The notes under the pieces: model-generated
Told to the model about the DNA's origin: nothing
Databases searched by the model: none
The model's input: the letters and a program-made list of their open reading frames with translations, nothing else
Shown: positions 21,905 through 49,427 of the stretch, piece by piece
How the letters are laid out: every line of letters starts with the position of its first letter
Position numbering within the stretch: position 1 is the first letter of the stretch
Translations under genes and position numbers: made by a program
Assembly: GCF_000219915.2 (NCBI RefSeq)
Contig: NC_017964.1
Coordinates: 2,728,001-2,792,000, forward strand
Direction of reading: 5' to 3'
DNA: 64,000 bases
Origin: Advenella kashmirensis WT001
Lineage (GTDB): Bacteria > Pseudomonadota > Gammaproteobacteria > Burkholderiales > Burkholderiaceae_B

Positions 21905-22304
21905 GTCGTCCTACAAATCGAATAAAGCAGACTATGCACATCAAAGACGGCGCAAGCGAACCGCTGCCTGTTTTTGTTCGCTCCTCCTATTGCGCCCTCT
22001 TCCATTCTGTTGCAAGCAATTATTGTGCCACGCTCAGCCCTGAGCATTGTCCAGCGCCCTGCCCACGGATATCGCCTGCAAGGCGGCGTTGCACATCATG
22101 ACACCCGGCCGGCGACCGACGACACTGAACAACATAGACAGTCGCAGCCTTAGTAGCTTTCGACACAACAATGTCACACACTGTGCCGGTTCCTGAGCAC
22201 TACTGCAACCACGATCCACCCGTGGTTCCAGAGGCAGCGTCGCTCGCTCGGCACCAGCGCGCTGGCCTGAACTATCCAGGCGCTGCAAGCCCGGTGGGAA
22301 ATCA
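21905..22304. other. Intergenic region with a sigma-54 promoter
   Basis: 400 bp between the small exported-protein gene and the AhpD-like gene (both minus strand). It holds the -24/-12 element at 22015-22031 and an inverted repeat GACA-N6-TGTC at 22162-22175, about 130-145 bp upstream of that promoter, a fitting distance for an activator site. No ORF is convincing. Confidence 0.45.
22015..22031 (-). promoter_or_regulatory. Sigma-54 (-24/-12) promoter of the small exported protein
   Basis: Minus strand reads GTGGCACAATAATTGCT. Against the consensus TGGCACG-N4-TTGCW it matches TGGCAC and TTGCT; the GG and GC pairs are separated by exactly 10 bp. Predicted start about 100 bp before the ATG at 21904. 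Confidence 0.7.
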
Positions 22305-22605
22305 TCAGAACATATGTGTTGCGTGCGTCACCGCCCCGCCGGCACGGATCGCTGCAGCAACCAGTGCAGCTTCGGCTAGCTGGGCATCGGTTGCACCGGC
22401 CTCGCGCGCCTGCTTGGTATGTATTGCGATGCAATAAGGACATTGCGTGGTAACGGCAACAGCAAGCGCGATAATCTGTTTTTGCATGTGCACTCAAGGC
22501 GCCATCGGCAAACGCAGCCTCATCAAATGCGCGAAACGCCTGCATGGCTTGCGGCGCTGCGGCATCAAGGTCTTTCATGTGGGCAAGATGTTTCATATCA
22601 TACAT
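22305..22605 (-). CDS. AhpD-like / carboxymuconolactone decarboxylase family protein, one frameshift
   Basis: A 99-residue all-helical AhpD-like protein. The signature is complete: KQIIALAVAVTTQCPYCIAIHTKQA with the CxxC redox pair and following His. One extra A in a run of five near 22492 shifts the frame after ADGALSAHA; without it the protein is continuous. Such proteins reduce peroxides or act as general thiol-disulfide enzymes. It lies between the small exported-protein gene and xoxF. Confidence 0.8.
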
Positions 22606-22664
22606 GTCATTATCTCCCTGGGAATTTTATTTACTATTCAGACCCATCCGGGCGTGGCAGCAAC

Positions 22665-22677
22665 TGTTGCCACAACA
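22665..22677. repeat. Palindrome TGTTG-CCA-CAACA
   Basis: A perfect 5-bp inverted repeat with a 3-bp centre, 60 bp upstream of the AhpD-like start and ~380 bp upstream of the xoxF -24 box. It is operator-like, but its role is unknown. Confidence 0.3.
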
Positions 22678-23057
22678 ATGGGTCGCAATTTCAGTTGTGA
22701 TATTGATCATGTCTGTCCATTCATGCCCGGGCACTCGCAACAGTCTCGGGTTTTCAACACACACGCCATTCAAATACAACCGAGTGCTCATCATGCCAAA
22801 CACCGGCTTTGATTTCAATGAATGTTTTTCTGAGCACCGCTCATTGTCCGCTCCGCCCGTTCGCAGCCCTTCGACCCTGCGCAAAAGGCGCCTGTCCTAA
22901 AACGACACATAATGTCCTGACCTTGTTCTGCTTGCGGTACATTTGCGCACGTGTATATATGCACATGGCGACCGGTATGCGCTGCCACATCAAACCGATC
23001 GTGCCCGATACGTCGATACGCCGCCATTTACGCATGTACCGGTCATCCTCCCAAAGA

Positions 23058-23074
23058 TTGGCATGAATTGTGCT
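23058..23074 (+). promoter_or_regulatory. Sigma-54 (-24/-12) promoter of xoxF
   Basis: TTGGCATGAATTGTGCT: GG and GC are 10 bp apart, and 11 of 13 specified consensus positions match (T for C in the -24 box, G for T in the -12 box). Start would be near 23085, about 90 bp before the xoxF ATG. The -24 box TTGGCATG is identical to that before gfa. Confidence 0.65.
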
Positions 23075-23173
23075 TATAGCTCTCTATGACCATACGCATG
23101 CTGCGCGTGCTATGTTCGCGTAAGACCTTTAATTCGTGTTCTGAAATATATAACGATAACCCCGGAGGAAGAC

Positions 23174-25021
23174 ATGTCTTTTAAGATAACCCTTAAACAG
23201 ATGCTATGTGTCGCAGGTGCGCTGGCCATTACCGGCACGGCACAGGCGGATCCACAATTGCAGGAAGCAATGAAAAACCCGGATAACTGGGCAGTTCAGG
23301 CAGGCGACTTCGCCAACCAGCGCTACAGTAAGCTGGATCAGATCAACAAGGACAACGTGAAGAACCTTCAGGTGGCCTGGACCTTCTCCACCGGGGTACT
23401 GCGTGGACACGAGGGCGGACCACTGGTTATTGGGGACGTCATGTACGTTCACAGTCCCTTTCCCAATAAGGTATATGCCATCAGTCTGAAGGATCAGAGT
23501 CTGCTCTGGAAATACGAGCCTACCCAGGATCCCAACGTCATAACCATCATGTGTTGTGATACTGTCAACCGTGGCCTGGCGTTCGGCGACGGCAAAATTA
23601 TTCTGCAACAGGCCGACACCACCATGGTGGCCCTGGATGCCAAAACCGGCAAGGAAGTATGGAAGGTCAAGAACGGCGACTTCAAGGTAGGTGAAAGCAA
23701 TACCAACGCGCCACATATTTTCAAGGATAAAGTGATCACCGGCATTTCCGGCGGTGAGTTCGGTGTCCGCGGGCGTCTGATTGCCTACAACCTGAAAGAC
23801 GGCAAGGAAGCCTGGAAAGCCTATTCGACAGGCCCGGATAACGAGATGCTGTTTGATCCCGAAAAAACCATGACCTGGACCGACGGCAAAATGGCTGCTG
23901 TGGGCAAAGACTCTTCGCTCAAATCATGGAAAGGCGATCAGTGGAAAATTGGCGGCGGCACCACCTGGGGCTGGTTCAGTTACGACCCTGCCCTGAATCT
24001 GGTGTATTACGGTACCGGCAACCCCGGCACCTGGAATCCATCGCAACGCCCAGGCGACAACAAATGGTCCATGTCCATCATCGCACGTGATCTGGATACC
24101 GGTGTAGCCAAGTGGGTTTACCAGATGACACCGCATGACGAATGGGATTATGACGGCGTTAACGAAAATATCCTTGCCGACATCAAGGTCGGTGGCAAGG
24201 ACCGCAAGGCACTGGTTCACTTCGACCGCAACGGCTTTGGCTATACGCTTGACCGCGAATCCGGAGAATTGCTGGTTGCCGAGAAATACGATCCGACCAT
24301 CAACTGGGCCGATAAAATCGACATGAAGTCCGGCCGTCCTGTTGTTAACAGCAAGTACAGCCCGGCCAAGGGCGGTGAAGACGTCAACGTCAAGGGAATT
24401 TGTCCTTCTGCACTGGGCACCAAAGATCAGCAACCCGCTGCATTCTCGCCCAAAACCGGCGTATTCTACGTTCCCACCAACCACGTCTGCATGGATTATG
24501 AACCATTTGCAGTCGACTACGTAGCCGGTCAGCCGTACGTTGGCGCGACCGTGTCCATGTTCCCAACCCCCAACAGCCATGGCGGCATGGGTAACTTCAT
24601 TGCCTGGGACGCTGATAAAGGCAAAATCCTGTGGAGTATTCCTGAAAGATTCTCCGTATGGAGCGGCGCCCTTGCGACAGCAGGCGATGTCGTGTTCTAC
24701 GGAACGCTTGAAGGCTACATCAAGGCCATTGATACCAGCGGCAAGGAACTGTGGAAGTTCAAAACACCGTCTGGCGTGATTGGCAACGTCACCACCTGGA
24801 AGTACGAAGGCAAACAGTACATTGGCGTATTGTCCGGTATTGGCGGCTGGGCCGGCATTGGTCTGGCAGCAGGTCTTGAAAAATCCACCGACGGCCTGGG
24901 TGCGGTTGGCGGATACAAGGATCTGGCCAAATACACCGAACTTGGCGGTGCGCTGATGGTCTTCGCATTGCCTGACAATGTCGCTACCGCAGCGGCAGAA
25001 AAAACCACCAAAACGCAATAA
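23174..25021 (+). CDS. xoxF: Lanthanide-type PQQ methanol dehydrogenase XoxF
   Basis: A periplasmic PQQ-dependent methanol dehydrogenase of 615 residues with a signal peptide ending near ADPQ. It oxidises methanol (and possibly formaldehyde) and passes electrons to a cytochrome c. The vicinal disulfide is Cys127-Cys128 (MCCDTVNRG). The catalytic Asp is D325 and the second Asp two residues on, D327 ([12 protein letters not shown]), is the mark of lanthanide-binding XoxF; calcium-type MxaF has Ala there. Probable metal ligands E195 and N283 are present. The beta-propeller tryptophan motifs recur throughout. No mxaI small subunit is nearby. A strong GGAGGAAG ribosome-binding site and a -24/-12 promoter lie upstream. 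Confidence 0.96.
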
Positions 25022-25030
25022 ATAGCGTCA

Positions 25031-25064
25031 TGCAGGGTGACCGGTTCGCGCCGTTCACCCTGCA
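25031..25064 (+). repeat. Stem-loop between xoxF and the cytochrome gene
   Basis: TGCAGGGTGA (25031-25040) pairs perfectly with TCACCCTGCA (25055-25064) around a 14-nt loop, 9 bp after the xoxF stop. It has no U-tract, so it is more likely an mRNA-stabilising or attenuating element than a terminator. Confidence 0.6.
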
Positions 25065-25141
25065 ATATCAAGGCATTAAAAGAAACACAAATTCATGTGG
25101 GGCATGCAATGCCTGCATGATAAATCTGGGACAAACTCAAT

Positions 25142-25777
25142 ATGACTTTACGTTTACGCACAATCGGAGCAGGACTCGCTATCGCTGGAATCTGTACCTT
25201 CTCTGCGCAAGCCGCAGATATCACCCCTGGAAAGCAATTGCTGGCCACAATGCTGGCAGCAACGACAACCACTTTTGGTGACGGGGGCGCAGAAACAACA
25301 CAAGGCACCCTCAAGGCGGAATCGACAGAAAAACGGCAAGTGCCGGCCGGCGCCGCTGCGCCGACCCCCGCGACTGCAGCCGAAAAGCCGGCGGCCGCCG
25401 ACAAACCAGCAGCTGACAAGGCCGCAGACGCGCCAGCAGCCTCCGATAGCGGCAAAGTAAAATATGTGGTCAAGGAAGGCAACAAGGCCGATGACCATGT
25501 ATTGCAAGGCTGGAAAACCTGGCGGGCACTCGATTGCGCGCGCTGTCACGGCGCCAAGCAGGAAGGGCTTGTCGGACCCTCACTGATCGTGGCGATGAGC
25601 AAGTTGTCGGAAGAAGAGTTCAAGACAACTGTGCTCAAGGGACGCCTGCCTCAGGGTATGCCCCCATTTGAAAGCGTACCGCGCCTGGTAAAGAATATTG
25701 ATAATCTATACACCTATTTGAAAGCACGTGCCGACGGCAAACTGGAACCCGGGCATGTGTACCCGCTGGATAAATAA
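25142..25777 (+). CDS. xoxG: c-type cytochrome, probable XoxF electron acceptor (XoxG)
   Basis: An exported monohaem cytochrome c of 211 residues that would take electrons from XoxF. It has a signal peptide (IGAGLAIAGICTFSAQA), a ~60-residue Ala/Pro/Lys-rich linker, and the haem domain with CARCH at residues 132-136 and a probable Met ligand in GMPPF. This order (xoxF, xoxG, xoxJ) is standard. The long low-complexity linker before the haem is unusual for a cytochrome cL. An inverted repeat CATGCA-N5-TGCATG (25103-25119) lies just before the start. Confidence 0.85.
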   Translation: MTLRLRTIGAGLAIAGICTFSAQAADITPGKQLLATMLAATTTTFGDGGAETTQGTLKAESTEKRQVPAGAAAPTPATAAEKPAAADKPAADKAADAPAASDSGKVKYVVKEGNKADDHVLQGWKTWRALDCARCHGAKQEGLVGPSLIVAMSKLSEEEFKTTVLKGRLPQGMPPFESVPRLVKNIDNLYTYLKARADGKLEPGHVYPLDK

Positions 25778-25789
25778 AAGCGTTACTAT

Positions 25790-25833
25790 AGGCAGGTGCT
25801 CATCCTTGAGCCCTGCCTGCGTTGCCGTTTTTT
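25790..25833 (+). terminator. Terminator/attenuator after xoxG
   Basis: AGGCAGG-t-GCTCA pairs with TGAGC-CCTGCCT, followed within 10 bp by six Ts. It lies inside the xox operon before xoxJ, so it probably lowers expression of the distal genes. Confidence 0.65.
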
Positions 25834-25872
25834 ATTTCAATTGTTATTATCGTTGTCGGAAGGACGTATTCC

Positions 25873-26784
25873 ATGCTGTCAGATAAATTACTGCCCATCC
25901 CACGCGCTGCATTGCTGCTCACATTCACGTTGAGCGCAGGCCTGCTTGCAGCAACTGCACTGGCGCAGGAACCAAAAAAGCAAGACAAGGACGGTGAAAA
26001 GGTCCTGCGGGTGTGCCAGGATCCCAATAATATGCCCATGTCCCGGCAGGATGAAAGCGGCTACGAAAACAAAATCGCCGCCCTGTTCGCAAAAAAACTG
26101 GGTTGGAAGCTGGAGCACACCTGGTATCCGCAGCGTATGGGTTTTACGCGAGCAACGTTAACGGCCAAGGATCCAAAGACCGACCGCTTTAAATGCGATG
26201 TGGTCACAGGCGTATCGCCCGGCTTTGAACGCGGCATTCCCACCAAGCGCTACATGACATCAACCTACGCGATTGTCTACGTCAAGGGCAAGGGCCTGGA
26301 TGGCATCAAGAAACCGGAGGACATCATGTCGCTGGATCAGGCGACACTGTCCAAAATCAAGATCGGCGCCTTCTCCGGCACACCACCGGTGAACTGGCTG
26401 TTGTCGCACAGCCTGCTGGAACGCATGGTACCGTATCAGTTGCAAACCGGGGACCCGGAACAATATCCAGGACAGATTATCGAGCATGATCTGGCCAACG
26501 GAAAAATCGACATTGCCATTGCCTGGGGCCCTATTGCCGGCTACTACGCCAAGCATGGTGATGGCGGCGTGCCCATGACCGTCGTACCCTTTGACACCCA
26601 GATCGGCCCGCATCGTTTTGCATTCAATATCGCCATGGGCGTGCGACATGACAGCAAAAAACTGCGTGACAAGCTCAATGAGTTAATCGACTCCAGTGGA
26701 CCGGAGATTGCCGCTATCCTCAAAGAATACGATGTTCCGCCGGCCACAGCCCCCGTGGACCGCATTGAAGATGACGACGACTGA
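25873..26784 (+). CDS. xoxJ: XoxJ/MoxJ-type periplasmic binding protein
   Basis: A quinoprotein-dehydrogenase-associated solute-binding protein of 303 residues. I chose the ATG at 25873 because GGAAGGA precedes it and a normal signal peptide follows (LLLTFTLSAGLLAATALAQ); an upstream ATG at 25822 would lie in the terminator. Family landmarks are LRVCQDPNNMPMS near the mature N terminus and IAIAWGPIAGYYA. XoxJ is thought to help activate XoxF. The C terminus ends in Glu and four Asp, a tail shared with the small exported protein at 21524-21904. Confidence 0.88.
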   Translation: MLSDKLLPIPRAALLLTFTLSAGLLAATALAQEPKKQDKDGEKVLRVCQDPNNMPMSRQDESGYENKIAALFAKKLGWKLEHTWYPQRMGFTRATLTAKDPKTDRFKCDVVTGVSPGFERGIPTKRYMTSTYAIVYVKGKGLDGIKKPEDIMSLDQATLSKIKIGAFSGTPPVNWLLSHSLLERMVPYQLQTGDPEQYPGQIIEHDLANGKIDIAIAWGPIAGYYAKHGDGGVPMTVVPFDTQIGPHRFAFNIAMGVRHDSKKLRDKLNELIDSSGPEIAAILKEYDVPPATAPVDRIEDDDD

Positions 26785-26831
26785 ACAGCGTCGTTGACAC
26801 TGCTGCGGATCGACAAGACAGGAGACCAAAC

Positions 26832-27566
26832 ATGATTGACCGCCCTATTTTCAGATCCGGCGCCATTGCGCTACTGCTGGCGCTATCGTGCCAGGCGACG
26901 CCCGTGCTGGCGGCCAATACCGACCAGCCCGCCGCAACCGCGGCCGAATCCAGGCCCGAAACAGATCCCATTACCGAAGCTGAACGCAAGCTGTTTCTGG
27001 ACAAGCATTTTGCCAACACGACCCGCCAGTCCATTGACTACACGTACCGTCAGGCGGGTCCCAGCATGGTGACGCTCAATGACAAGGTCAAAGTGGATGT
27101 TCGCCAACGGCACAAAGACGGCACAGCATCGGTCGACGTGTATTTTCTTTCCGGCCCGAACCATACGCCGATCGCGCCTGTTGAGCATGCCGAAGGAAAC
27201 CCTGCCCTGCTGGGATTTCTGGAGCGCGATATTGCCGAAATGAAGCGATTTACCGGCGGCTCCACCGTTTACTTTCGCAAGCGTATCAGGCTGGCGCTGG
27301 CCGACAGCAACGTGAAAGTAGATAAGGTCAATGTCAAGTTTGAGAACAAGCAGGTTGCGGCCGATCGCATTGTGATCCAGCCGTATATCAATGATCCGAT
27401 GAAGGAAAAGATTGGCAAGTATGCCGCCAAGCGCTATATCTTCGTGATCAGTCCGAATATACCGGGTGGTCTGTATCAGGTATATACAAGTGAAAAATTT
27501 GCTGAAAACCAGCCAGCTCAGGTCGATACGTCCATGACGATTTCCGGGGGCGAAATACCGGGATAG
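26832..27566 (+). CDS. Exported protein of the xox cluster, unknown function
   Basis: A 244-residue exported protein (signal peptide IALLLALSCQATPVLA). The body is mixed alpha/beta with no cofactor motif: SVDVYFLSGPNH, STVYFRKRIRLALAD, RIVIQPYINDPMKEKIGKYA and a terminal KRYIFVISPNIPGGLYQVYT. I recall similar proteins in methanol/PQQ dehydrogenase clusters but not a function. It follows xoxJ by 47 bp with an AGGAG site, and its stop codon lies inside the operon terminator. A periplasmic assembly or folding role for XoxF is only an inference. Confidence 0.75.
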   Translation: MIDRPIFRSGAIALLLALSCQATPVLAANTDQPAATAAESRPETDPITEAERKLFLDKHFANTTRQSIDYTYRQAGPSMVTLNDKVKVDVRQRHKDGTASVDVYFLSGPNHTPIAPVEHAEGNPALLGFLERDIAEMKRFTGGSTVYFRKRIRLALADSNVKVDKVNVKFENKQVAADRIVIQPYINDPMKEKIGKYAAKRYIFVISPNIPGGLYQVYTSEKFAENQPAQVDTSMTISGGEIPG

Positions 27567-27582
27567 CAAGCATCCCGGTTTT
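27558..27582 (+). terminator. Rho-independent terminator of the xox operon
   Basis: CCGGGAT-agcaagc-ATCCCGG followed by TTTT. The stem includes the last bases and stop codon of the upstream gene. Confidence 0.7.
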
Positions 27583-27591
27583 GTGCCAGCA

Positions 27592-27619
27592 AAGGGCCCG
27601 TTCTATACAATGGGCCCTT
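27592..27619. repeat. Inverted repeat between convergent genes
   Basis: AAGGGCCC-N12-GGGCCCTT lies between the xox operon and the convergent beta-propeller gene. A strong stem without a U-tract; possibly a shared transcription end. Confidence 0.45.
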
Positions 27620-27675
27620 CGGCCGTCATAAGGCCAACAATCACTGTCCGGCCAGCCAAGCCGCCGGTATAGCGA

Positions 27676-28622
27676 TCAGTGGATATACACCCCCCATGGA
27701 CGTTCGCCCACTGCAATATCGCTAATCTTCGTATTTTTTTCAGTGTCGATCACAGATACGCTGTTGGAGCGGCCGTTGGCCACATACAGTTTTTTGCCGT
27801 CGGGCGAAATGGCCATGTTCCACGGGCGCTGACCCACTTTGACAGTGGCAACGATTTCATCTTTGGCCGTATCAATCACCGATACACTCCCATCCCCGCC
27901 GTTGGAGATATACACGCGGCTGCCATCGGGGCTGACCGTCACGCCGTTGGCACGTACGCCGCCAGCCAGTTTTTTCAGTACTTTATTGTTCGGCAAATCA
28001 ATTACATAGACTTCGTTACTGTTTTCGGAAGCGACATAAGCCTTGCTATTGTCAGGAAGATAGCCTATTCCGCGAGGACGTTTACCCACCTCGATTTCGG
28101 CAACTGCCTTGCGAGCCGGAAAATCGATGACATCAACCGTATTTCCATCTTCTGCGCTCACCAGCAGCTTTTTACCGTCCGGCGAAAAGACCGCGTGCTC
28201 TGGATTATCTCCTTTTACCTTGATCTCATCGACCATTTTATTGGTCTGGGTATCAATGATGGCAACGGTATTATTCTCTTCAATCGCCGCGGCAATCCAG
28301 CGGCCATCGGCCGAGACGTATACCCCCTCAGGCGAGTCACCCAGGCTCACGCTGCCAATCACCTTGCGTTGTTTCAAATCCACAATATTGAGCTGGTTAT
28401 TGGTTTTCTGGCTCACATACAGATTATCTCCACTGGCCGCCAGCCCCTGGGCTTTTCCCCCAGATCCTTGATCGTATCCACGACCTTGTCGGTCGCGACA
28501 TCGATGACAGAAATACTGGCACCGCCTTCATTAGGCACATACGCAAATGGTTCGGCTGTGGCTGCGGTGCCGAACGAAAGCACTGCCGCGGCAAGTGTTG
28601 TAATTAGTATTTTTTGTCTCAT
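27676..28622 (-). CDS. PQQ-associated YVTN beta-propeller protein, one frameshift
   Basis: An exported protein of about 315 residues (signal peptide up to ATAEPF) made of YVTN-type beta-propeller repeats; blocks such as VSPDGSRVYISNGGDGSVSVID and AISPDGKKLYVANGRSNSVSVID (shortened here) recur about seven times. The family is found beside PQQ-dependent alcohol oxidation genes. One G is missing from a run near 28450, so DLGGKAQGLAASG is split between frames. It follows cytochrome b561 by 30 bp and converges on the xox operon. Confidence 0.85.
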
Positions 28623-28652: not shown

Positions 28653-29210
28653 CTACCGGCCTGATGAGGAGCCAGGCAGCATTCGATGAATTACCTCCCG
28701 ATGCCCCGACACGAGGTGCGAGACAGCGGCCAGCACATGCAGAATGATCAGACACAGCAGTATCCAGGAAATCAACCCATGCAACTGATTGAAAAACGCA
28801 TAAATCGCTTTATCTTCCACGCCCCAGGGAGGCATTTCAATAGTGTTGAAAAACTTGACGCCCCATTTGCTGAAGTTGGATGCGATATAGCCGGTGAGCG
28901 GCAGCATCAGCATGAAAAAATAAAGCAGAAAATGAGTGGTGGAAGCGGCCTTTTGCTGCCACGTGGGGATGGACCTGGGCAAGGCGGGAGGGCGATGGGT
29001 AAGGCGCCAGCCAATACGCGCCAGAATCAGCAGGCCGATCAGCATCCCTGTGCTTTTATGTATATTCACAAAATAGCTGCGATCGGGCACACCCCGCGGT
29101 ATGCTTTCCAGATACCAGCCCAGAACGAACTGCCCTACCAGGCACAGTGCGATCAGCCAATGCAGCAGCATTGCCACTCGTGTATAACGAGGTGCATCCA
29201 TGTATGTCAT
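28653..29210 (-). CDS. Cytochrome b561 family protein
   Basis: A 185-residue membrane b-type cytochrome with four helices. It starts with RYTRVAMLLHWLIALCLVGQFVLGW, containing the first haem His; further His ligands are in FVNIHKSTGMLIGL, FNQLHGLISW and LIILHVLAAVSH. It would move electrons between the quinone pool and periplasmic partners. It lies 30 bp before the beta-propeller gene on the same strand, so it could serve the PQQ respiratory chain. Confidence 0.88.
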   Translation of the reverse strand: MTYMDAPRYTRVAMLLHWLIALCLVGQFVLGWYLESIPRGVPDRSYFVNIHKSTGMLIGLLILARIGWRLTHRPPALPRSIPTWQQKAASTTHFLLYFFMLMLPLTGYIASNFSKWGVKFFNTIEMPPWGVEDKAIYAFFNQLHGLISWILLCLIILHVLAAVSHLVSGHREVIHRMLPGSSSGR

Positions 29211-29371: not shown

Positions 29372-29998
29372 TCATCCCCTGATTGTTTCTCCTGCACGAT
29401 CCAGCAAATCCGAACTGCTGCCATTGAGCAGCATCAAATGAAAACGCGACAGCTCGCTTTTATGCAGCAACGTAACCGGGCAGGCCAGCTGATCTGCGTA
29501 CTTGCGGAATCCTTCATCCAGTACGCCGTCGCGGATATGCTGCGCCACATTCACGTTCGAAAAAAACGGCCGCGTTTTTACCAAAATCAACCTTTCTGCA
29601 TTCAAATGTGTCGCCAGCCATGCTGCGATACTATCGGATGAAATCGTGGAGTCGGTCAGATCATCCGGTATATCTCGCATCAGCGACAGCGGCATCCATA
29701 GCGCGACGCCGCCCCGTTGCAGCGTCTGGCGCACATGCCGCGCATCCAGCACCGGACTGATCTGCGGCGCCATGCTGCTGATCAATAATCCGTACTGCGC
29801 GCCCGTAAGCAGCAACATATTATGCGTTACCAGGCGATCCAGCGACCAGCGTGCCTTCATCTCCCTTACAAAATCTGCGCCATGCCAGCGACCAGGCACG
29901 ATAATGACCCGTCCCCCGCCGACAGTACTCAGTTCTTCAACCCAATCCTGTAATGTGTCATCATGAGCCAGAGCACCGTCAAGCTTGACTACCCACAT
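29372..29998 (-). CDS. Amino-acid-kinase-fold protein (MfnE-like), altered glycine motifs
   Basis: A 208-residue protein of the amino acid kinase fold, closest in my reading to the COG2054/MfnE-like kinases found in methylotrophs with methanofuran or tetrahydromethanopterin pathways. The core DSIAAWLATHLNAERLILVK is well kept. The phosphate-binding motifs are altered: KLGGS reads KLDGA and the VVPGGG loop reads IVPGRWHG. No fae, mch, fhc or mtd gene is in the window, where formaldehyde oxidation is glutathione-linked instead. It is either a kinase with changed nucleotide binding or a repurposed protein. Confidence 0.6.
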   Translation of the reverse strand: MWVVKLDGALAHDDTLQDWVEELSTVGGGRVIIVPGRWHGADFVREMKARWSLDRLVTHNMLLLTGAQYGLLISSMAPQISPVLDARHVRQTLQRGGVALWMPLSLMRDIPDDLTDSTISSDSIAAWLATHLNAERLILVKTRPFFSNVNVAQHIRDGVLDEGFRKYADQLACPVTLLHKSELSRFHLMLLNGSSSDLLDRAGETIRG

Positions 29999-29999: not shown

Positions 30000-30291
30000 T
30001 CCCTCTCCTGGTCTTATCTTTTTATAATGGCTCCAGGTTAACAAAAGCAATATTCATACCAGAATTGTCAGGCAACCAGGCTTTTGCGGACATATTACTT
30101 GCCGACCCCGTGGCCCTTGCCTGCGGGCATTAGCGCGCCTGTGAGAAATACGCAGCGCACTCTTGCAGATCCGGTGCGCATTGCTGCGGCTTAACAGGCG
30201 CCGCTGCCAACCAAGACTGCTACGCATGCGTGACAATGTGTACCGTTACGCACTCAGGCCCAGACGTTGATCAGGGCGGCGCCATCACTGA
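30000..30291. other. Intergenic region between cbbR and the kinase-like gene
   Basis: About 290 bp downstream of cbbR (minus strand). An A/T-rich patch (TTTTTATAAT near 30020) lies just before the kinase-like gene. No coding signal seen. Confidence 0.35.
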
Positions 30292-40495: not shown

Positions 40496-41608
40496 TCAAT
40501 CGAAAGTAACCACGGAACGGATCGAGGTACCCGCATGCATCAGATCAAATGCCTCGTTGATCTTCTCGATTGGCATGACATGTGTGATCAGGTCATCAAT
40601 ATTGATCTTGCCTTCCATGTACCAGTCAACAATTTTTGGCACATCGGTACGACCGCGTGCGCCGCCAAATGCCGAACCCTGCCAGACGCGGCCGGTAACC
40701 AGCTGGAATGGTCGTGTCGAGATTTCCTGGCCCGCACCGGCCACGCCGATAATCGTGCTCTTGCCCCAGCCTTTATGGCAGGACTCCAGCGCCTGGCGCA
40801 TCAGATTCACATTGCCGATACATTCAAAGGTATGATCGGCGCCGCCCTTGGTCAGACTCACCAGGTAGGGAACGATATCGCCTTCGACTTCTTTCGGATT
40901 GACAAAATGCGTCATGCCGAACTTGCGAGCCAGCTCTTCGCGTGCCGGATTGATGTCTACGCCGATAATCATATCGGCACCGGCCATGCGCGCACCCTGA
41001 ACGACATTTAAACCAATGCCGCCCAGACCAAATACAATCACCTTATCGCCGGGCTGTACCTTCGCTGTATAGATGACTGCACCAACACCGGTTGTGACGC
41101 CGCAGCCGATGTAGCAGACCTTTTCAAAAGGCGCATCTTCGCGGATTTTGGCAAGTGCAATCTCCGGCACCACCGTGTAATTGGAAAACGTGGACGTACC
41201 CATGTAGTGAAATACATCCTTGCCATTCAATTTGAAGCGGCTGGTGCCATCGGGCATCAGGCCCTTGCCCTGGGTTTCGCGAATGGCACCGCACAAATTG
41301 GTCTTGCGCGACAGGCAGAATACGCAATTGCGGCACTCTGGCGTATAAAGCGGAATCACGTGATCGCCAGGTTTGAGCGTGGTGACGCCAGAGCCCACCT
41401 CTACGACCACACCGGCGCCTTCGTGGCCCAGAATAGCTGGAAAAATGCCCTCCGGATCATCACCGGACAGCGTGAACATATCTGTATGACACACACCCGA
41501 TGCCTTGATTTCCACCAGCACTTCGAATGCACGCGGGCCGTCCAGCTGGACAGTCTCGATCGTCAGTGGCGCCCCGGCTTTGGTGGCAACAGCGGCTTTT
41601 GTTTCCAT
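40496..41608 (-). CDS. frmA: S-(hydroxymethyl)glutathione dehydrogenase (class III alcohol dehydrogenase)
   Basis: A zinc-dependent dehydrogenase of 370 residues that oxidises S-hydroxymethylglutathione to S-formylglutathione, the main step of glutathione-linked formaldehyde oxidation. Catalytic zinc ligands are in [16 protein letters not shown] and the structural zinc Cys cluster in CRNCVFC. The nucleotide fold is [20 protein letters not shown]. It follows gfa by 15 bp on the minus strand and probably shares its -24/-12 promoter. Confidence 0.97.
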
Positions 41609-41623: not shown

Positions 41624-42193
41624 TTAAGATGCATTTTTCGATTTTGCAACGTGTGTTGCGATAACGTCCATCAACGCTGGCGACAGCGCATCATAGGGCG
41701 GCAATCCCAGTTCGTTCAGTCTTGCACGAATGCCATCCATTTCCGCAGGATCGGTACCTGTTTCAATAATGGACGAGACAAAAGCGGCAAAGGTGGGCGC
41801 AGACCAGCCGGTCTGGGGAGAACGCTCTGTATGAATGAAATCGAGCCCATAGAATGGATGCTGCGTGTTTTCAATACGGCCATACATGTGAACGCCGCAG
41901 CCGCTGCACGCATAACGCTGAATGGCTGCCGATTCGTCGACCACCTTGAGCTTGTCGCCATGAGCTGTGACCTGCACAGACTCTTTTGGCACCACGGCAA
42001 CCTGCGAAAACAGGGCGCCGGCGGGCCGCCAGCATTTGGAACAACCACAAAGGTGATTGTGGGCCGATTGCGAGTTCACTGTTACTTCGACCCTGTCTGT
42101 CTCGCAATTACAAACCAGTTTGCCACCGGTAAAGTTATTGTCTGTACTAGCCTGAACGCCATTGTTAACGGCTGGATGGATATTGTAACTCAT
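41624..42193 (-). CDS. gfa: S-(hydroxymethyl)glutathione synthase (Gfa)
   Basis: Gfa speeds the condensation of formaldehyde with glutathione. 189 residues from the ATG at 42193 ([12 protein letters not shown]), the usual length; an in-frame start at 42250 is less likely. The zinc-binding cysteines are visible in [16 protein letters not shown] and [13 protein letters not shown]. It is the first gene of gfa-frmA and has a very good sigma-54-type promoter 70-90 bp upstream. Confidence 0.95.
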
Positions 42194-42263: not shown

Positions 42264-42280
42264 AGCAACTTCCATGCCAA
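42264..42280 (-). promoter_or_regulatory. Sigma-54 (-24/-12) promoter of gfa-frmA
   Basis: Minus strand reads TTGGCATGGAAGTTGCT; GG and GC are exactly 10 bp apart and 12 of 13 specified consensus positions match. The start would be near 42253, giving a 60-nt leader before gfa. Confidence 0.75.
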
Positions 42281-42378: not shown

Positions 42379-42595
42379 CGTCTGCAGTTGTTCAGAATAC
42401 GATACAGGCTGTGCCATGCTCGCCGCAGATGCACGCGGTGCGATACAGATACTGCATCAGCAGGCGATGCCGCGCCTGGTCTGTTGCCCCGCTCTGCCGC
42501 AATATGCAAGCTTGCCAGACCGCGGCATCGCAGGGACAATCAGACAAATAAACCACGCAGGCAAACCTGTCCAGATGCCCGGGCGTGCGATTGTG

Positions 42596-43635
42596 TCAGG
42601 ACGCGTCCGAGAGCTGCGCCATGGTCTGAGTCAGCGCCGCAAGAATGAGTGGATCCGACGGCGTATGGGTGCCACCCGGTACCCAGTGCACATCGGCGCC
42701 GGGAAGGAAGCGCTGCAGCAAATGCACATTGGCGGCCGGACATATCCAGTCATGCGTGCCATGCAGCAAAGTAGCCTTCATCGGCACCTCGCGCAGTTGC
42801 GCCAGTAGCGCAGGCAGGTCGATAAACCCCATGTGGCGCAAATAGTGTGCCTGGATACGATATTTATGGATAATGCGCTGCGCCGCCTTAGCCCGATCGG
42901 GTTCGTCTTGGCCACTGTCAGCCTGGAGACTGCCGTGCCGACAGCCGTCTGGTCTGTCGCGCTCTGATCCTGGACTTGCTTTTTTGCGGCCTGCTGCCCC
43001 TTAGGTGCTTGCTGCGTGACTTTACCCTGCATCATGCTGACCATAATCTTGCTTTCATAGCTGCTCCAGCGCTCGGCTGCATCCGATATTTTCTCGCGAT
43101 CACTGCCCAGCAGCCGGTCCGCCAGCGTCTGCAAGACTGATTCTTTTTCACTATTGCTCATGGTCTCGGTCAGGCTGTCCCAGGCTTGCGGCACCAATGC
43201 CTGCAATTGCTGGAAGAACCAGTCCAGCTGCAACCGGGAAGGCAGGAACGTGCCGCGCAGCACGAGATGACGAATGTGTTTTGCATGCCTGGCCGCATAG
43301 GCCAGGGCCAGGTATGCTCCCCAAGATCCGCCCACGACGGTCCACGCCGAAATGGCCAGATGCTGTCGCAACCGTTCAATATCGTCTACCAAATGCGCCG
43401 TTGTATTATGTTCCAGACTTCCGGTGGGCAGGCTTTTGCCGCTGCCGCGCTGGTCAAACAGGACGACCCGCCAGCGATTCAGGTCAAACCACTCCAGCAT
43501 GGCCAGATTACTGCTACTGCCCGGCCCGCCATGCAGAACGACTGCGGCAGGCGCCCGGACATTGCCGAATTCGGCGTAATACAACTGGTGCCCATCGGGG
43601 GTCTGCAGATAACCTTGGGACAATGGCATGCTCAT
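42596..43635 (-). CDS. pip: Proline iminopeptidase-like alpha/beta hydrolase, one frameshift
   Basis: An alpha/beta hydrolase of the prolyl aminopeptidase (S33) family, about 346 residues after repair. The start is set at 43635 (MSMPLSQGYLQTPDG). Motifs: VLHGGPGSS (oxyanion loop), FDQRGSGKS, and the nucleophile GGSWGAYLALAYA. The second frame brings LHGTHDWICPAANV (acid) and VPGGTH (His). One base is missing near 42895. The cap region holds an unusual Gln/Lys/Ala-rich insert of about 35 residues (from KVTQQAPKGQQAAKK on). Confidence 0.82.
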
Positions 43636-43734
43636 AAAAACAAGTTCCGGACAGAAGATGAAAACAGGATCGCACATTACAACTGATATAATGGCCAAGG
43701 CATAAACCGGAAATTTTTTGCAGGTTAAAGCGCC

Positions 43735-43762
43735 TTGACAAATATGCGAGTCATGCTACCAT
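43735..43762 (+). promoter_or_regulatory. Sigma-70 promoter candidate of pqqA
   Basis: TTGACA (43735-43740), 16 bp spacer, TACCAT (43757-43762). The start would give a leader of about 125 nt before pqqA. No -24/-12 element is seen here. Confidence 0.5.
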
Positions 43763-43894
43763 TAATTTGACTGCGCATCGTTTTACAGTCATGCGGGGCA
43801 GTAGCCATATTCAATTATCAGTATCATGCTGGTAGCTGGCTCATACACCTTCTGCCTGCCACTTCGACATTTTCCATCTGAACAGGAGATATTT

Positions 43895-43969
43895 ATGAAA
43901 TGGACAACACCTGAGTTTTGCGATCTGCGTTTTGGCTTTGAAATCACGATGTACATTGCCAACCGTTAA
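43895..43969 (+). CDS. pqqA: PQQ precursor peptide PqqA
   Basis: A 24-residue ribosomal peptide, the source of PQQ. The sequence around the conserved pair is DLRFGFEITMYIANR, with the Glu and Tyr (E-x3-Y) that become cross-linked by PqqE. An AGGAGA ribosome-binding site precedes the ATG. It is 63 bp before pqqB. Confidence 0.96.
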   Translation: MKWTTPEFCDLRFGFEITMYIANR

Positions 43970-44032
43970 TCTGCATCCTACGCTCATACCATGCGGCGCT
44001 GGCGAGAGCCAGTGCCGTTTTACTTGCTACCT

Positions 44033-44962
44033 ATGAAAATTCTTGTGCTTGGCTCTGCCGCCGGTGGCGGATTCCCGCAGTGGAACTGCAACTGTCCCAA
44101 TTGTGATGGTGTGCGCCGACAAAGCATCCGCGCCATCCCCCGTACCCAGTCATCCATTGCGATATCGGCCGACGGTATTCAGTGGCTGCTGGTCAATGCT
44201 TCTCCCGATATTCTCAAACAAATCCAGGCTAACCCTGCCCTGCAGCCCGCGCGCAGCGTGCGTGATACCGGTATCACATCTGTAATATTAATGGATGCCC
44301 AGATCGATCATGTGACCGGCCTGCTGATGCTGCGCGAAAGCGGCAGCCCCATCCCCTTGTATTGCACTGAGCCGGTATGGAACGACCTGAGCACCGGCCT
44401 ACCGCTCACCCAGGTCCTGTCGCATTATTGCGGCCTGACGCACCGGCACATCACCGTTGAAGAAAATCGCTTCAGCCCGCCTTTGCAACTGGTCGAGCTG
44501 CCGGGCATTACCATTACCCCGTTTCCGCTCACCAGCAAGGCCCCGCCCTATTCGCCCAACCGCAATAATCCGCAGGTGGGCGACAATATCGGCCTGCTTA
44601 TTACCAGCGAGCGCTCCGGCAAAAGTCTTTTTTATGCACCCGGTCTGGGCCAGATCGAACCGCTGGTCCTGGAGGCCATGTCCCGCGCTGATTGCGTCAT
44701 GGTAGACGGCACGGTGTGGACCGAAGACGAGATGATCCGTCTTGGCCTGTCACGCAAGACTGCCGCCCAGATGGGCCATCTGCCGCAATCGGGACCTAAC
44801 GGCATGATCAGCGTTCTGGACTCGCTGGGCGACAATAAACGCAAAATTCTTATTCATATTAACAACAGCAATCCGATTCTGAATCAGGATTCGGAAGAAG
44901 CTGCAGTGCTGCAACGGCATAATATTGAAATCGCCGTTGACGGCATGGAGATCACATTGTGA
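44033..44962 (+). CDS. pqqB: PQQ biosynthesis protein PqqB
   Basis: A metallo-beta-lactamase-fold protein of 309 residues needed for PQQ formation (proposed hydroxylase of the tyrosine part). The ATG at 44033 is chosen because [19 protein letters not shown] is the canonical start; a further upstream ATG exists. The zinc-site Cys pair NCNCPNC and the [13 protein letters not shown] motif (in place of HxHxDH) are visible. Its stop overlaps the pqqC start by 2-4 bases. Confidence 0.96.
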
Positions 44963-45717
44963 GCATCGTTCTGTCGAATCTTGCTGGATATAACCAGAAA
45001 CAAACCGACCCCCAGGCCTGGGACCGGGCCGAATTTGAACGGCAGCTGCGCGCCAAGGGCGCCAGCTACCACATCCACCATCCATTCAATATCCGAATGA
45101 ATAGTGGCCAGTTGAGTCAGGACGATATCCGCTGCTGGGTCGCCAACCGCTTCTATTACCAGATCAATATTCCGCTCAAAGATGCTGCGGTCATGTCCAA
45201 CTGCCCCGACAGGGAAACCCGCCGCCGCTGGATTCTGCGCATGCTGGACCATGATGGTTTTGGCGATAATGAGGGCGGCATTGAAGCCTGGACGCGTCTG
45301 GGCCTGGCGGTGGGTATCAGCCGCGAGGATTTATGGTCTTTGAAGCTGGTCGCACCCGGCGTACGTTTCGCCGTAGATGCGTATGTTAATTTTGCGCGCC
45401 AGGTGCCATGGCAGGAAGCGGTTTGTTCATCACTGACCGAAATGTTTGCACCGAAGATTCATAAAGACAGGCTGGCAAACTGGCCCGGCCATTATCAGTG
45501 GATCGAGCCAGAAGGACTGGAATATTTCCGTAGTCGGATCTCTCTGGCGGAACGGGATGTCGAACACGGGCTGCAGGTCACGCTCGATTACTTTACCACC
45601 CGCCAGCAGCAAGCGCGGGCACTGGAAATACTGCAATTTAAACTGGACATTCTATGGTCCATGCTGGACGCCATTGAAAAAGCCTGCCAGCACAACAGCG
45701 AGACAACCCATGCCTGA
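44959..45717 (+). CDS. pqqC: Pyrroloquinoline-quinone synthase PqqC
   Basis: A cofactorless oxidase of 252 residues that makes the last ring closure and oxidation giving PQQ. The start codon is GTG inside the pqqB stop (GTGA). Motifs: [14 protein letters not shown] with active-site His residues, and [14 protein letters not shown]. It overlaps pqqD by 8 bp, so the genes are translationally coupled. Confidence 0.97.
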
Positions 45718-45973
45718 CTTGCCCGAAAAGCCCCTGTTGTCGCGCCTGTTCCGGCTGCAGTACGAAAAGGCGCAAAACGCCTATGTACTGCTGTATCCGG
45801 AAGGCATGGTCAAGCTCAATGACAGCGCCGCCGAAATTCTACGTCGCTGTGATGGCGAACGAAATATTGCCCAGATCGTTGCCGATCTGGAACAAAGCTT
45901 TGCCACGACAGGATTGCAGAAGGATGTTGAATCATTTCTGCAGGCTGCGCAGGAGCGTGGCTGGATCAAATAG
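45710..45973 (+). CDS. pqqD: PQQ peptide chaperone PqqD
   Basis: An 87-residue protein that binds PqqA and delivers it to PqqE. It shows [20 protein letters not shown] and [19 protein letters not shown], the standard PqqD fold with winged-helix character. It starts within the end of pqqC and ends 8 bp before pqqE. Confidence 0.95.
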
Positions 45974-45981
45974 AGGTCACC

Positions 45982-47172
45982 ATGGATATGCCCCAAGTTG
46001 CTGAGCAAAAGCAGAAACCGACCATTGCGCCCCCGCTGTGGCTGCTGGCCGAACTGACCTATCGCTGTCCGCTGCACTGCGTGTTCTGCTATAACCCGGT
46101 GGATTATGCCAGCAACCTGAACGAGCTTACTACCGACCAGTGGATCAGCGTTATGCGCCAGGCGCGGGAAATGGGCGCGGCACAACTGGGGTTTTCCGGC
46201 GGCGAGCCTTTGCTGCGCGATGACCTGGAAATACTTGTGGCAGAAGGTCGCCAACTGGGTTTCTATACCAATCTTATTACGTCCGGCGTTGGCTTGAAGC
46301 GCGAACGGCTTGCCGCCCTGCGGGAAGCCGGGCTCGATCATATTCAACTGTCCTTCCAGGACTCCACGCGGGAAATGAACGATTTCCTGACCCACACCAA
46401 AACCTTTGATTTGAAATCTCGCGTTGCCTCCATGATTCGCGAATTCGAATATCCCATGGTGCTGAATGTGGTCCTGCATCGCTATAACCTGGACCATATC
46501 GAACGCATTATCGAGATGGCCGACAAAATGGGTGTGGAGTATCTTGAACTGGCCAACACACAGTATTACGGCTGGGGTCTGATCAACCGCGAACAGTTGT
46601 TGCCTGATCGGGAGCAATTGCAGCGCGCCGAAGCCGCCGTTGCGCGCTATCGCGAGAAAATCGGCAATCGGATGCGTATTCTGTTTGTGGTGCCGGATTA
46701 TTTTGAAAAGCGACCAAAAGCCTGTATGAACGGCTGGGGATCCGTTTTCCTGGCCATCTCTGCCGATGGCAGCGCCCTGCCCTGTCATGCCGCAAAAACC
46801 ATTCCTGGCTTGCAGTTCCCGCAGGTAACCGATACCGCCCTGCATGATATCTGGTACCACAGCGACGCATTCAACAAGTTCCGCGGTGATGCCTGGATGC
46901 AGGAGCCTTGTCGCACCTGTCCGGAAAAGGAACGGGATTTCGGCGGCTGCCGCTGCCAGGCGCTGGCCCTGACCGGCAATGCCGCCAACGCCGATCCGGT
47001 TTGCGATAAATCACCCTATCACCATGTTATTACGGATATGATCGGCCGTAAGCCGACAGTCGCCGTCCAGGAAAAACCGCTGGTGTTTCGCAACGACGCC
47101 AACTCGCGCCGGCTGTCTGCCGACATGGCCACCGGCGTGCCGGCAAGCGAAGACAAAATGTCGCCCTTATAG
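45982..47172 (+). CDS. pqqE: PqqA peptide cyclase PqqE
   Basis: A radical SAM enzyme of 396 residues that cross-links Glu and Tyr of PqqA. The [4Fe-4S] motif is C29-x3-C33-x2-C36 (TYRCPLHCVFC). A C-terminal SPASM-type cysteine set is visible (AKACMNGWGS in the protein as KACMNG, then LPCHAAK, CRTCPEKE, FGGCRCQA). It closes the pqqABCDE operon; pqqF is not present. Confidence 0.96.
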   Translation: MDMPQVAEQKQKPTIAPPLWLLAELTYRCPLHCVFCYNPVDYASNLNELTTDQWISVMRQAREMGAAQLGFSGGEPLLRDDLEILVAEGRQLGFYTNLITSGVGLKRERLAALREAGLDHIQLSFQDSTREMNDFLTHTKTFDLKSRVASMIREFEYPMVLNVVLHRYNLDHIERIIEMADKMGVEYLELANTQYYGWGLINREQLLPDREQLQRAEAAVARYREKIGNRMRILFVVPDYFEKRPKACMNGWGSVFLAISADGSALPCHAAKTIPGLQFPQVTDTALHDIWYHSDAFNKFRGDAWMQEPCRTCPEKERDFGGCRCQALALTGNAANADPVCDKSPYHHVITDMIGRKPTVAVQEKPLVFRNDANSRRLSADMATGVPASEDKMSPL

Positions 47173-47193
47173 GGAAAACGAGGCACGCATAAC

Positions 47194-47207
47194 ATATCAT
47201 GTGATAT
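47194..47207. repeat. Palindrome ATATCA-TG-TGATAT after pqqE
   Basis: A perfect 6-bp inverted repeat, ~190 bp before the sigma-54 regulator gene. It could be an operator for that gene. Confidence 0.35.
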
Positions 47208-47395
47208 ACAATTGGGTGAGTATGGACAGGTTCCCCGGCCACTAACGGGTCACCGATATGTTCGCAGTTTAATGTTGCGCAGACAACATCAATATGTAGC
47301 GGGCATACAACCCGTATACAAGCACCGAGACAGATTACAAAAATCGGCATCAGCCACCGAAAGGACAAGCGCTGATGTACATAGCAGGAGGAGAC

Positions 47396-49427
47396 ATGTA
47401 CTCGTTGGAGGTCAGCAACCACATTGAGCGGATTAACCAGATTGTGCATCGCGGCGTCATGGTTCCGGACATTGATCCGGCGGTCGCCAGTTCCTGGGGG
47501 CGTTGCGTCAACGATTATGGCCTGGACCCGGAAAGCCGTCGCCTGCCTCCCGTTCTGACCCACGCCGAGCGGATCGCACGCTCGGAACAGAAGCGGGTCC
47601 TGATTACCGAAGCCAAACATGAAATGAATATTCTGTATCAGCAACTGGCTGATCCGGAGTTGGCCGTTGTGCTCGTGGATACCGACGGTTGTATTTTGCA
47701 CATGGTGGCCGCTGATCACCTGGAAAGTGATCTTTCCGGGCTGGGTTTGCGCCTGGGGGCAATCTGGAGTGAAGAGGAAGTGGGCACCAACGGGATGGGC
47801 ACCTGCCTGGTCGTAGGCGAGCCCATTGCCATCCGTCAGACCGACCACTTTTTATACAAACATATTTTGCTTACCTGTTCCGCAGTTCCGGTCATGGATC
47901 ACACCGGAAAAATGATTGCAGTACTGGATGTGACCAGCCGCTCGTCGCTGCTGCAACAGCATTCGCTGGTGCTCATCGGCATGACCGCCCGCATGATTGA
48001 AAACCGCCTGCTTACCGTCAATTGCAAGCAAGCGCATCCGGTGCATTTCCACAGCCGGCCCGAAAGCATCAATACCGTGCATGACGGCAAGCTGATGGTC
48101 GAAGAGGACGGCACTATTGTTGCAGCCAACCAGAGTGCGCTGTTCCAGTTGGGCTTTCCCGACATGCAGGCGCTGCGCCGTTATCGCTTCGATGAAATTT
48201 TCCAGCTGACGCTTGAATCGCTCTTGCAACGCAGTATGCAAAGCTCGTTTCACCCTGTACCGATCTATCGGGCCGGGGCGTCCAGTCGTTTTTTTGCCGT
48301 GGCCCAATTGCCTCCTGCCGGCTCCACCCATTTGACCTTTCACAGCGCACCATCCAAAACATCCGGTCTGCCCGCACAGGACAAAGCGTCCGAGCCGGCC
48401 AGCCTGCCTGCCAGAACCGTCAAGCCGGGCAACGTTGCTGCGTTGAACTTGGCGATCCTGTCTTGCGCGACCAATTCGAACTGGCACAACGCGTCGTGAG
48501 CAAAGGAGTTCCGGTGTTGCTGTATGGCGAGACAGGATCCGGCAAGGAAGTGCTCGCCCGCGCGGTTCATGATCGCAGCCCCCGTCGCGATGGCCCCTTC
48601 GTCGCCGTCAACTGTGCATCGCTGCCCGAAAGCCTGATCGAAAGTGAATTGTTCGGCTATCGAGCAGGTGCTTTTACCGGCGCCCAGCGCCAGGGTCGCA
48701 GCGGCAAAATACTGCAGGCCCATGGCGGCACGCTTTTGCTTGATGAAATTGGCGACATGCCTTTGGCATTGCAGGCACGCCTGCTACGCGTGCTTGATGA
48801 GCGCAAGGTTACCCCGCTCGGTGCTGACGCTTCGGTCGATGTAGACATTCAACTGATCAGCGCCAGCCACCGGAATCTGACCGATCTGGTTGCCAAGGGT
48901 CAATTCAGGGAAGACTTGTACTACCGCCTCAACGGCGTAGAAATACGCCTGCCACCGCTGCGCGAACGCCAGGACAAACGCCAGCTTATCGAGGCCATCC
49001 TCCAGGAAGAAGCCGGCAAACCGGTAGTACTCAGCGATCAGGCGCTGAAGATTCTCATGCAATACGTCTGGCCTGGCAATTTGCGCCAGATGCGCCATGT
49101 GTTGCGCACCATGGCCGTCCTGGCCGAAGGCACAATCATTGGTGTGGAGCACTTGCCCGGGCCGCTGGCAGATCAGCATTCACAACCGACAGGCAATGGC
49201 GTTGCGTCAATTGGGTTGACAGACTGTATGGCTGTGAGCGACGAACACGAACCGGTTAACCCTTTGCAGGAAAGTGAAAGAATTACCCTGATCCAGCTGC
49301 TGGAGACCCATCGCTGGAATATCAGCGATGTGCGCGAACGCTGGGTGTCAGCCGCAATACCCTGTATCGCAAACTGCACCGGCACAACATTACCCTGTCC
49401 ACGCAGGGTAACCCCACCACCATCTGA
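47396..49427 (+). CDS. Sigma-54-dependent activator of AcoR type, two frameshifts
   Basis: An enhancer-binding protein of about 677 residues. The ATG at 47396 is preceded by AGGAGGAGA. The N-terminal half has a GAF sensor domain (SEEEVGTNGMGTCLVVGEPIAI, abridged to EVGTNGMGTCLVVGEP), typical of AcoR/AdhR-like regulators, and a PAS-like segment. The AAA+ domain has Walker A YGETGSGKE, the sigma-54 contact loop FGYRAGAFTGAQ and Walker B GGTLLLDEIGDM. The C-terminal Fis helix-turn-helix (LGVSRNTLYRKLHRHNI) is in a third frame. One base is missing near 48445 and one near 49335. Its place after pqqE and the three -24/-12 sites nearby suggest it controls methanol and formaldehyde oxidation. Confidence 0.88.

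Follow-up and report, generated by a model that had tools for sequence, protein, structure and literature searches.

A likely sigma-54 regulon for XoxF methanol oxidation, with a linked GAF-AAA+-Fis activator, in Advenella kashmirensis WT001 and its relatives

We analyzed a 64,000-nucleotide stretch of the genome of Advenella kashmirensis WT001 (contig NC_017964.1, positions 2,728,001 to 2,792,000; hereafter the window), which carries xoxF, the gene of a lanthanide-type methanol dehydrogenase. The sequence gives us good confidence that the window represents a sigma-54 (RpoN) regulon for methanol oxidation driven by a dedicated GAF-AAA+-Fis activator, and we regard control of XoxF methanol oxidation by RpoN and such an activator as very likely, and as widespread among the relatives examined. 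Because four promoters carry the same sigma-54 element and the same palindrome, one nearby activator probably turns the pathway on jointly. A preliminary description of the window had proposed a shared sigma-54 promoter set with a linked activator, a proposal that gained support from the conservation of the promoters, from their common palindrome and from an activator clade that tracks xoxF.

The window genome (G000; G and L numbers are our labels for genomes and loci) has two congeners with the same gene cluster, G001 and G007, whose xoxF genes have 99% and 97% identity, respectively, to that of the window. Three -24/-12 elements, each with exact GG-N10-GC spacing, had been reported before xoxF, before a small gene that we call asp, and before gfa-frmA, the genes of a glutathione-dependent formaldehyde route. 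All three were found at these places, as was the TTGGCATG said to be common to the xoxF and gfa elements. A fourth, which had been missed, precedes a kinase gene:

22015..22031, minus strand: -24/-12 element of asp, GTGGCACAATAATTGCT, identical in both congeners
23058..23074, plus strand: sigma-54 -24/-12 element of xoxF, TTGGCATGAATTGTGCT, unchanged in G001 and G007
42264..42280, minus strand: sigma-54 -24/-12 element of gfa-frmA, TTGGCATGGAAGTTGCT, the same in G001 and with one base different in G007
30046..30062, minus strand: fourth -24/-12 element, 47 bp from the kinase gene that it precedes, CTGGTATGAATATTGCT; both congeners have CTGGTACGAATATTGCT, which differs from the window in one base of the -24 box

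Sites were scored against the consensus YTGGCACGRNNNTTGCW (quoted in a passage of PMC5874634) with weights of our own setting, and GG-N10-GC was required. Among the GG-N10-GC sites of the window, the gfa, asp and xoxF elements ranked 1, 2 and 4. Seven window sites scored at least 20 against 2.65 expected, and two at least 21 against 0.3 (40 first-order Markov simulations). Two other sites were set aside: that at 50501-50517, with a score of at least 20, is not conserved in G007, and that at 20830-20846 lies inside an open reading frame (ORF). Genome-wide, TGGCAYNNNNNKTGCW had 46 matches compared with 12 for the reversed control, so that -24/-12 sites alone carry an appreciable false rate and the case rests on conservation and on the shared palindrome. 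In three-species alignments the elements were unchanged except for the single gfa base, a T to C change towards the consensus in G007, while the spacer between element and palindrome diverged; the elements had not been lost in close relatives. The genome also encodes sigma-54 (rpoN, PF04552, 192.7 bits, C1:407828-408295). Outside the genus, asp of L002-L005 is likewise preceded by a -24/-12 site, with scores of 19.8-21.0.

A shared upstream palindrome, which the preliminary description had proposed as something to seek, was found at all four promoters. Alignment of the three species revealed a second conserved block upstream of the asp, xoxF and gfa elements, each block holding a (C)ACA-N3-TGT palindrome. 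The sites, with ranks among 63,986 window positions from the matrix described below and distances from palindrome centre to the GG, are as follows:

22173..22187, minus strand: asp palindrome, GGCACAGTGTGTGAC, centre 151 bp from the GG, matrix rank 2/63,986
22904..22918, plus strand: xoxF palindrome, GACACATAATGTCCT, centre 149 bp from the GG, matrix rank 4/63,986
30230..30244, minus strand: kinase-gene palindrome, GGTACACATTGTCAC, centre 177 bp from the GG, matrix rank 7/63,986
42401..42415, minus strand: gfa-frmA palindrome, GGCACAGCCTGTATC, centre 130 bp from the GG, matrix rank 1/63,986

The xoxF palindrome lies in a stretch of 33 columns without any variation among the three aligned species, and its 15-mer is identical in G001 and G007. 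Those of asp and gfa are identical in G001 and differ in G007 by one base, which in asp is a spacer base; that of the kinase gene is identical in G007 and differs by one spacer base in G001.

An early guess at the palindrome, GNACA-N3-TGTNC, had the wrong register and gave zero exact matches in 77 promoters. A search for inverted dyads found CACA-N3-TGTG in 23 of 37 promoters (nine of them from the window genus), compared with 0.2 expected. A matrix was then trained on 27 xoxF promoters of the Burkholderia, Paraburkholderia and Caballeronia group, namely the L015-L053 loci with a -24/-12 score of at least 18 minus six loci of other lineages. It comprised nine distinct sites, symmetrised, with letters from Burkholderia-group loci only. 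All 27 training loci have GACACA-N3-TGTNNC upstream of xoxF, as read from the best 15-mer against the core GACACA-N3-TGTGTC. The third-ranking matrix site of the window, at 55847-55861, has none of the 40 best window -24/-12 sites within several kb.

The combination of element and palindrome was nearly exclusive to the proposed targets. When the best palindrome up to 300 bp upstream was taken for 47 genome-wide -24/-12 sites (the 46 matches plus a TGGTAT site), the top four were the window promoters, with scores of 16.4, 14.8, 12.4 and 9.7, and the fifth scored 7.8. Some other -24/-12 sites of the genome precede ORFs that, from their translations, we named glutamine synthetase-like, PII-like and aldehyde dehydrogenase-like. 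A composite pattern, CACANNNTGT-N{118,148}-TGGYAYNNNNNKTGC, was searched for in 20 genomes. It matched three times in the 4.4-Mb genome of G000 (xoxF, asp and gfa), at the same three genes in G001 and twice in G007 (xoxF and asp), compared with two isolated matches in the 17 other genomes and three for the reversed control in all 20. The kinase promoter falls outside this pattern because it has TACA and a longer spacer, and the G007 gfa promoter because it has GACA.

The candidate activator of these promoters is encoded in the window itself:

47375..49424, plus strand: gene of the GAF-AAA+-Fis sigma-54 activator, next after pqqE, with a broken frame here

In the deposited sequence the gene is split into two ORFs, 47375-48499 and 48463-49497. 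Sigma54_activat was matched, GAFTGA is present in the translation of 48463-49497 and HTH_8 lies in another frame, which together mark the product as an enhancer-binding protein. It had been described as the sole such protein of the window, and of the Sigma54_activat matches in the genome it was indeed the only one to fall there. The homologues in G001 (738 aa) and G007 (719 aa), taken from their listed starts, are open and have GAF, Sigma54_activat and HTH_8 domains. The label "AcoR-type" held as far as the GAF-AAA+-Fis domain plan goes; the protein belongs to an xoxF-linked clade of its own, apart from the other full-length homologue of the genome (G000:C1:219776-221695, here C1:220298), with which it shares 38% identity. 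The activator resembles DhaR/AcoR-like activators in its domain plan, with a weak PAS match, and its N-terminal half scored 42.1 bits against the solved DhaR sensor 4lrx. It differs from DhaR in scoring 93.3 bits against NCBIfam DhaR, far below the cut-off of 551, and in its separate clade.

As a separate observation, in the region G000:C1:219776-231456 the gene of the other homologue has an aldehyde dehydrogenase-like gene as its neighbor; a -24/-12 site lies at 221902 and a pyrroloquinoline quinone (PQQ) alcohol dehydrogenase-like gene at 229798. This is possibly a second, separate sigma-54 alcohol regulon.

Activator, xoxF and promoter were then compared across genomes. The named loci are the best 80 of a longer list; two of them, L009 and L070, had no DNA upstream of xoxF and were left out, and 53 of the remaining 78 had a best -24/-12 site of at least 18 within 500 bp of xoxF. 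The activator was searched for in 50 genomes, namely G000 and the genomes of 49 named loci. After the scores had been seen, these were sorted into 23 with a close form (at least 670 bits), 16 with a distant form (490-590 bits) and 10 with none (at most 430 bits). A -24/-12 site of at least 18 within 330 bp of xoxF was present in 17 of 23 genomes with the close form and 10 of 15 with the distant form (L009 left out), compared with 2 of 10 with none (Fisher P 0.008, either form against none). Palindrome scores of at least 9 before xoxF were reached in 8 of 13 close-form genomes outside the training set, compared with 4 of 25 with the distant form or none (rank test P 0.011).

In a FastTree phylogeny of 60 sequences, the xoxF-linked activators formed one clade of 54 leaves (support 0.983), within which some leaves share a genome and two, L220 and L223, belong to genomes in which no xoxF passed the cut-off. 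The GAFTGA loop was present in every leaf of this clade except L225. The close form made up a clade of 28 leaves (support 0.998), apart from the C1:220298 homologue.

In the distant-form group (Pollutimonas, Candidimonas, Noviherbaspirillum, Massilia and relatives) no CACA-N3-TGTG-type dyad was found in the promoters. Four of 23 promoters there (xoxF of L002-L005) have GGAACA-N15-TGTTC, and four others (xoxF of L010-L013) another repeat, TGTCACGAAT..TGaACA. That different upstream repeats occur where the activator is of the distant form suggests that activator and site have changed together. Massilia-type loci (L006, L007, L008, L010 and L071) have -24/-12 sites scoring 20.5-22.0 before frmA of an frmA-gfa cluster, and L008 and L010 have them before xoxF as well.

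A wider sample of the order, 300 genomes drawn evenly and searched at E <= 1e-140 for the activator and E <= 1e-240 for xoxF, gave the activator in 15 genomes, xoxF in 31 and both in 11, the window genome included. Thus xoxF was present in 11 of 15 activator genomes compared with 20 of 285 others (Fisher P 2.4e-9), and in 10 of the 11 the two genes were on one contig within about 34 kb, those of G099 being on different contigs. For the promoter test in this sample, 28 xoxF upstream regions were used; L255 lacked upstream DNA, G197 had no locus, and the window genome was set aside. The -24/-12 scores were higher in the 10 regions with the activator than in the 18 without (P 0.0003), and 7 of 10 compared with 2 of 18 scored above 95% of shuffled versions of the same region. 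The two activator-less exceptions, G240 and G145, are genomes 85% and 87% complete.

Several observations weigh against the proposed regulon or limit its reach. The conserved part of the activator is interrupted twice in the deposited sequence, while the congener frames are intact. No -24/-12 site of at least 18 was present within 330 bp of xoxF in 6 of 23 close-form and 5 of 15 distant-form genomes, while 2 of 10 activator-less genomes had one, and 4 of 25 genomes without the close form reached a palindrome score of 9. In the order sample, no xoxF passed the cut-off in 4 of the 15 activator genomes, and the activator was absent from 20 genomes with xoxF. Outside the genus, in the 23 genomes with the close form, no palindrome upstream of asp scored above 5.9 and the best -24/-12 sites there scored 13.7-19.5, so membership in the regulon varies. 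The letters of the palindrome matrix are independent of the window genus and its register is not, because the core GACACA-N3-TGTGTC was chosen after that genus had also been seen. Finally, all the P values are too small because the genomes are related to one another.

Together, the promoter elements, palindromes and activator suggest the following mechanism, in which xoxF, asp, gfa-frmA and the kinase genes would be transcribed by sigma-54. The activator encoded after pqqE would bind the palindrome (approximately GACACA-N3-TGTGTC), centred 130-177 bp upstream of the four promoters, and would reach, by looping of the DNA, the closed complex of RNA polymerase and sigma-54 at the -24/-12 element, which it would open with ATP. 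Its N-terminal GAF region may sense a signal such as methanol or formaldehyde, or some other pathway product. The predicted targets are xoxF with the genes for its G- and J-type partners, the small secreted companion of XoxF, the glutathione-dependent gfa-frmA route and a gene run led by the kinase, and with these four targets the making and the removal of formaldehyde would be turned on together.

Of the competing explanations, the one that survives best is also compatible with the regulon proposed here: the regulon may be real in the genus and dead or decaying in this strain through a true activator frameshift. The genome paper of Tetrathiobacter (Advenella) kashmirensis WT001 holds such frameshifts to be real, as pseudogenes (PMC3669393). 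In addition, of 70 one- or two-base indels relative to G001, coding and non-coding, only 20 touch a run of at least three equal bases. Set against this is how common broken frames are here: in window positions 19000-50500, 11 of 25 matched G001 stop-to-stop frames run in more than one frame in WT001 (10 of 29 for G007). Among the 11 are what we read as the genes of transketolase and of the RuBisCO large subunit, and WT001 is described as a chemolithoautotroph in the abstract of the genome paper (PMC3669393). For two of the frames, L164:13502-14794 and L165:13223-13801, it is doubtful that they represent single genes. The promoters and palindromes are also still intact. We therefore think the published frameshifts in this region at least partly suspect and regard decay as somewhat unlikely; if the activator frameshift is real, the strain may have lost a control that its relatives keep.

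A second explanation accepts sigma-54-dependent promoters with a shared palindrome and has them bound by another activator, for example the C1:219776-221695 homologue beside the aldehyde dehydrogenase-like gene or an NtrC-like protein. The genome has four strong Sigma54_activat genes, three of comparable strength outside the window, and so offers candidates. However, it is the clade of the window activator that follows xoxF from genome to genome, and only a poor palindrome accompanies the -24/-12 site next to C1:220298 (L112, score 1.0); we consider this explanation improbable. We give still less weight to the idea that some other regulator, such as a repressor, binds the palindrome, with sigma-54 sites and palindrome conserved for separate reasons. 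A conserved palindrome by itself names no protein, but this one stands 130-177 bp upstream, a usual enhancer distance, alongside a -24/-12 element, and its occurrence follows that of the close activator form. That the -24/-12 matches are due to chance, the genes using sigma-70 promoters, is hardly credible: some of the good-looking sites will be chance matches, given the number expected in the simulations and the unconserved site noted above, but conservation, the composite pattern and the order-wide promoter test together led us to reject it.

The RpoN/activator regulon that we favor resembles the MmoR/sigma-54 control of soluble methane monooxygenase (sMMO; mmoX) in methanotrophs, an RpoN-dependent one-carbon oxidation operon with a nearby GAF-type activator. 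A passage of PMC5874634 gives the mmoX promoter as YTGGCACGrNNNTTGCW and places sMMO under RpoN/MmoR. The likeness is one of description, and unlike the system proposed here, MmoR has methane monooxygenase as its target and not XoxF or formaldehyde oxidation. In their subject, the control of lanthanide-type (XoxF-, PedH-type) alcohol dehydrogenases, MxbDM, MxcQE, MxaY/MxaB and PedS2/PedR2 are comparable. These are two-component systems or orphan members of such systems, and the regulation passages of a review do not name sigma-54, while a figure legend there names a GAF-modulated sigma-54 regulator gene in maps of dehydrogenase clusters (PMC11845868).

No published description of sigma-54 control of xoxF was found in the open literature searched, a search that most subscription papers and preprints lay outside; the available portions of PMC12997753, PMC8879981 and PMC8427195 describe none. 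In the passages at hand, sigma-54 regulators are listed with nitrogen genes (PMC5623727), sox genes (PMC11237559) and nif genes (PMC6754898), and RpoN motifs are found at nitrogen genes (PMC12403871). The control of xoxF is largely open in many non-model bacteria, for which we now propose a gene for the regulator, the DNA site it would bind and its set of targets. If the proposal is correct, formaldehyde production is coupled to removal through one activator, and the relatives with the same system include common soil and plant bacteria.

The proposed targets and their neighbors are as follows:

21524..21904, minus strand: asp, ORF for a small secreted four-cysteine protein of 126 aa that ends in PVDDDD, companion of xoxF
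23174..25021, plus strand: xoxF, lanthanide-type methanol dehydrogenase, 615 aa, with HDEWDYDG
25142-25777, plus strand: xoxG-like cytochrome c (Pfam Cytochrome_CBB3)
25822-26784, plus strand: xoxJ-like periplasmic protein (NCBIfam TIGR03871, 264.2 bits, cut-off 212.15)
27676-28416, minus strand: beta-propeller gene of the kinase run, frame-broken (PQQ_ABC_repeats, 233.1 bits, cut-off 287.3)
28653-29210, minus strand: cytochrome b561-like gene of the kinase run, named from its translation
29372..29998, minus strand: MfnE-like kinase gene, first of a minus-strand run (NCBIfam MfnE, 37 bits, cut-off 300)
40496..41608, minus strand: frmA, S-(hydroxymethyl)glutathione dehydrogenase-type alcohol dehydrogenase (Pfam ADH_N and ADH_zinc_N; named from sequence and context)
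41624..42193, minus strand: gfa, S-(hydroxymethyl)glutathione synthase (TIGR02820, 324.6 bits, cut-off 234.55)

An extra Asp two residues past the catalytic Asp is the mark of XoxF-type (lanthanide) methanol dehydrogenases among the PQQ enzymes of methanol/ethanol type. The window protein aligns through HDEWDxDG with 6oc5, which together with 6dam was its best PDB match (both are named lanthanide-dependent XoxF), and it scored 747.2 bits against TIGR03075 (cut-off 480.05), which identifies it as XoxF. The asp protein matched no Pfam or NCBIfam family; its AlphaFold model has four helices (mean pLDDT 76.8), with no match among PDB folds at E <= 0.001. One homologue of asp was present in each of the 25 searched genomes with xoxF and the close activator (G001, G007 and 23 named), often near the xoxF genes, and its product is likely a new XoxF accessory protein. 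The kinship of the kinase to MfnE is distant, given its score of 37 bits against a cut-off of 300, and a role in the tetrahydromethanopterin (H4MPT) pathway is not obvious because the genome has no Fae match.

The leaders from the -12 box to the start codon (asp, 21905-22010, minus strand; xoxF, 23085-23173, plus strand) are nearly invariant in the three species, beyond what a promoter needs. The asp leader can form a hairpin (z -1.55, not significant) and that of xoxF is unremarkable (z 0.47); no Rfam family was found in window positions 21000-50000 at gathering thresholds.

On a broader and tentative view, which we put forward without leaning on it, the activator clade is a master switch of rare-earth-dependent methanol oxidation across the Burkholderiales, in which xoxF is kept and the formaldehyde-removal target exchanged (gfa-frmA in glutathione-route lineages, fae in H4MPT lineages), and whose GAF region senses a one-carbon intermediate directly, which would make it a lanthanide-enzyme switch without a two-component system. 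At E <= 1e-30, gfa was present in G001 and G007 and in none of the 23 close-form genomes outside the genus. Fae had no match in G000, G001, G007 or the genomes of L002 and L004 and was present in those of L016 and L060, and Burkholderia-group loci such as L016 have fae, asp and the activator in a row. Eight of about 30 fae loci were aligned upstream of fae (L016, L034, L048, L024, L042, L018, L032 and L015) and have a conserved TTGGCACGGAACcTGTTAG-like element, [CT]TGGCA[CT]G followed by TGTTAG (TGATAG in one). This is GG-N10-GT (GA in one), a form excluded by the GG-N10-GC scan, and is suggestive of a possible variant sigma-54 promoter. A second fae-like gene, at L285, has a GG-N10-GC site scoring 20.2 and a weak palindrome scoring 7.6.

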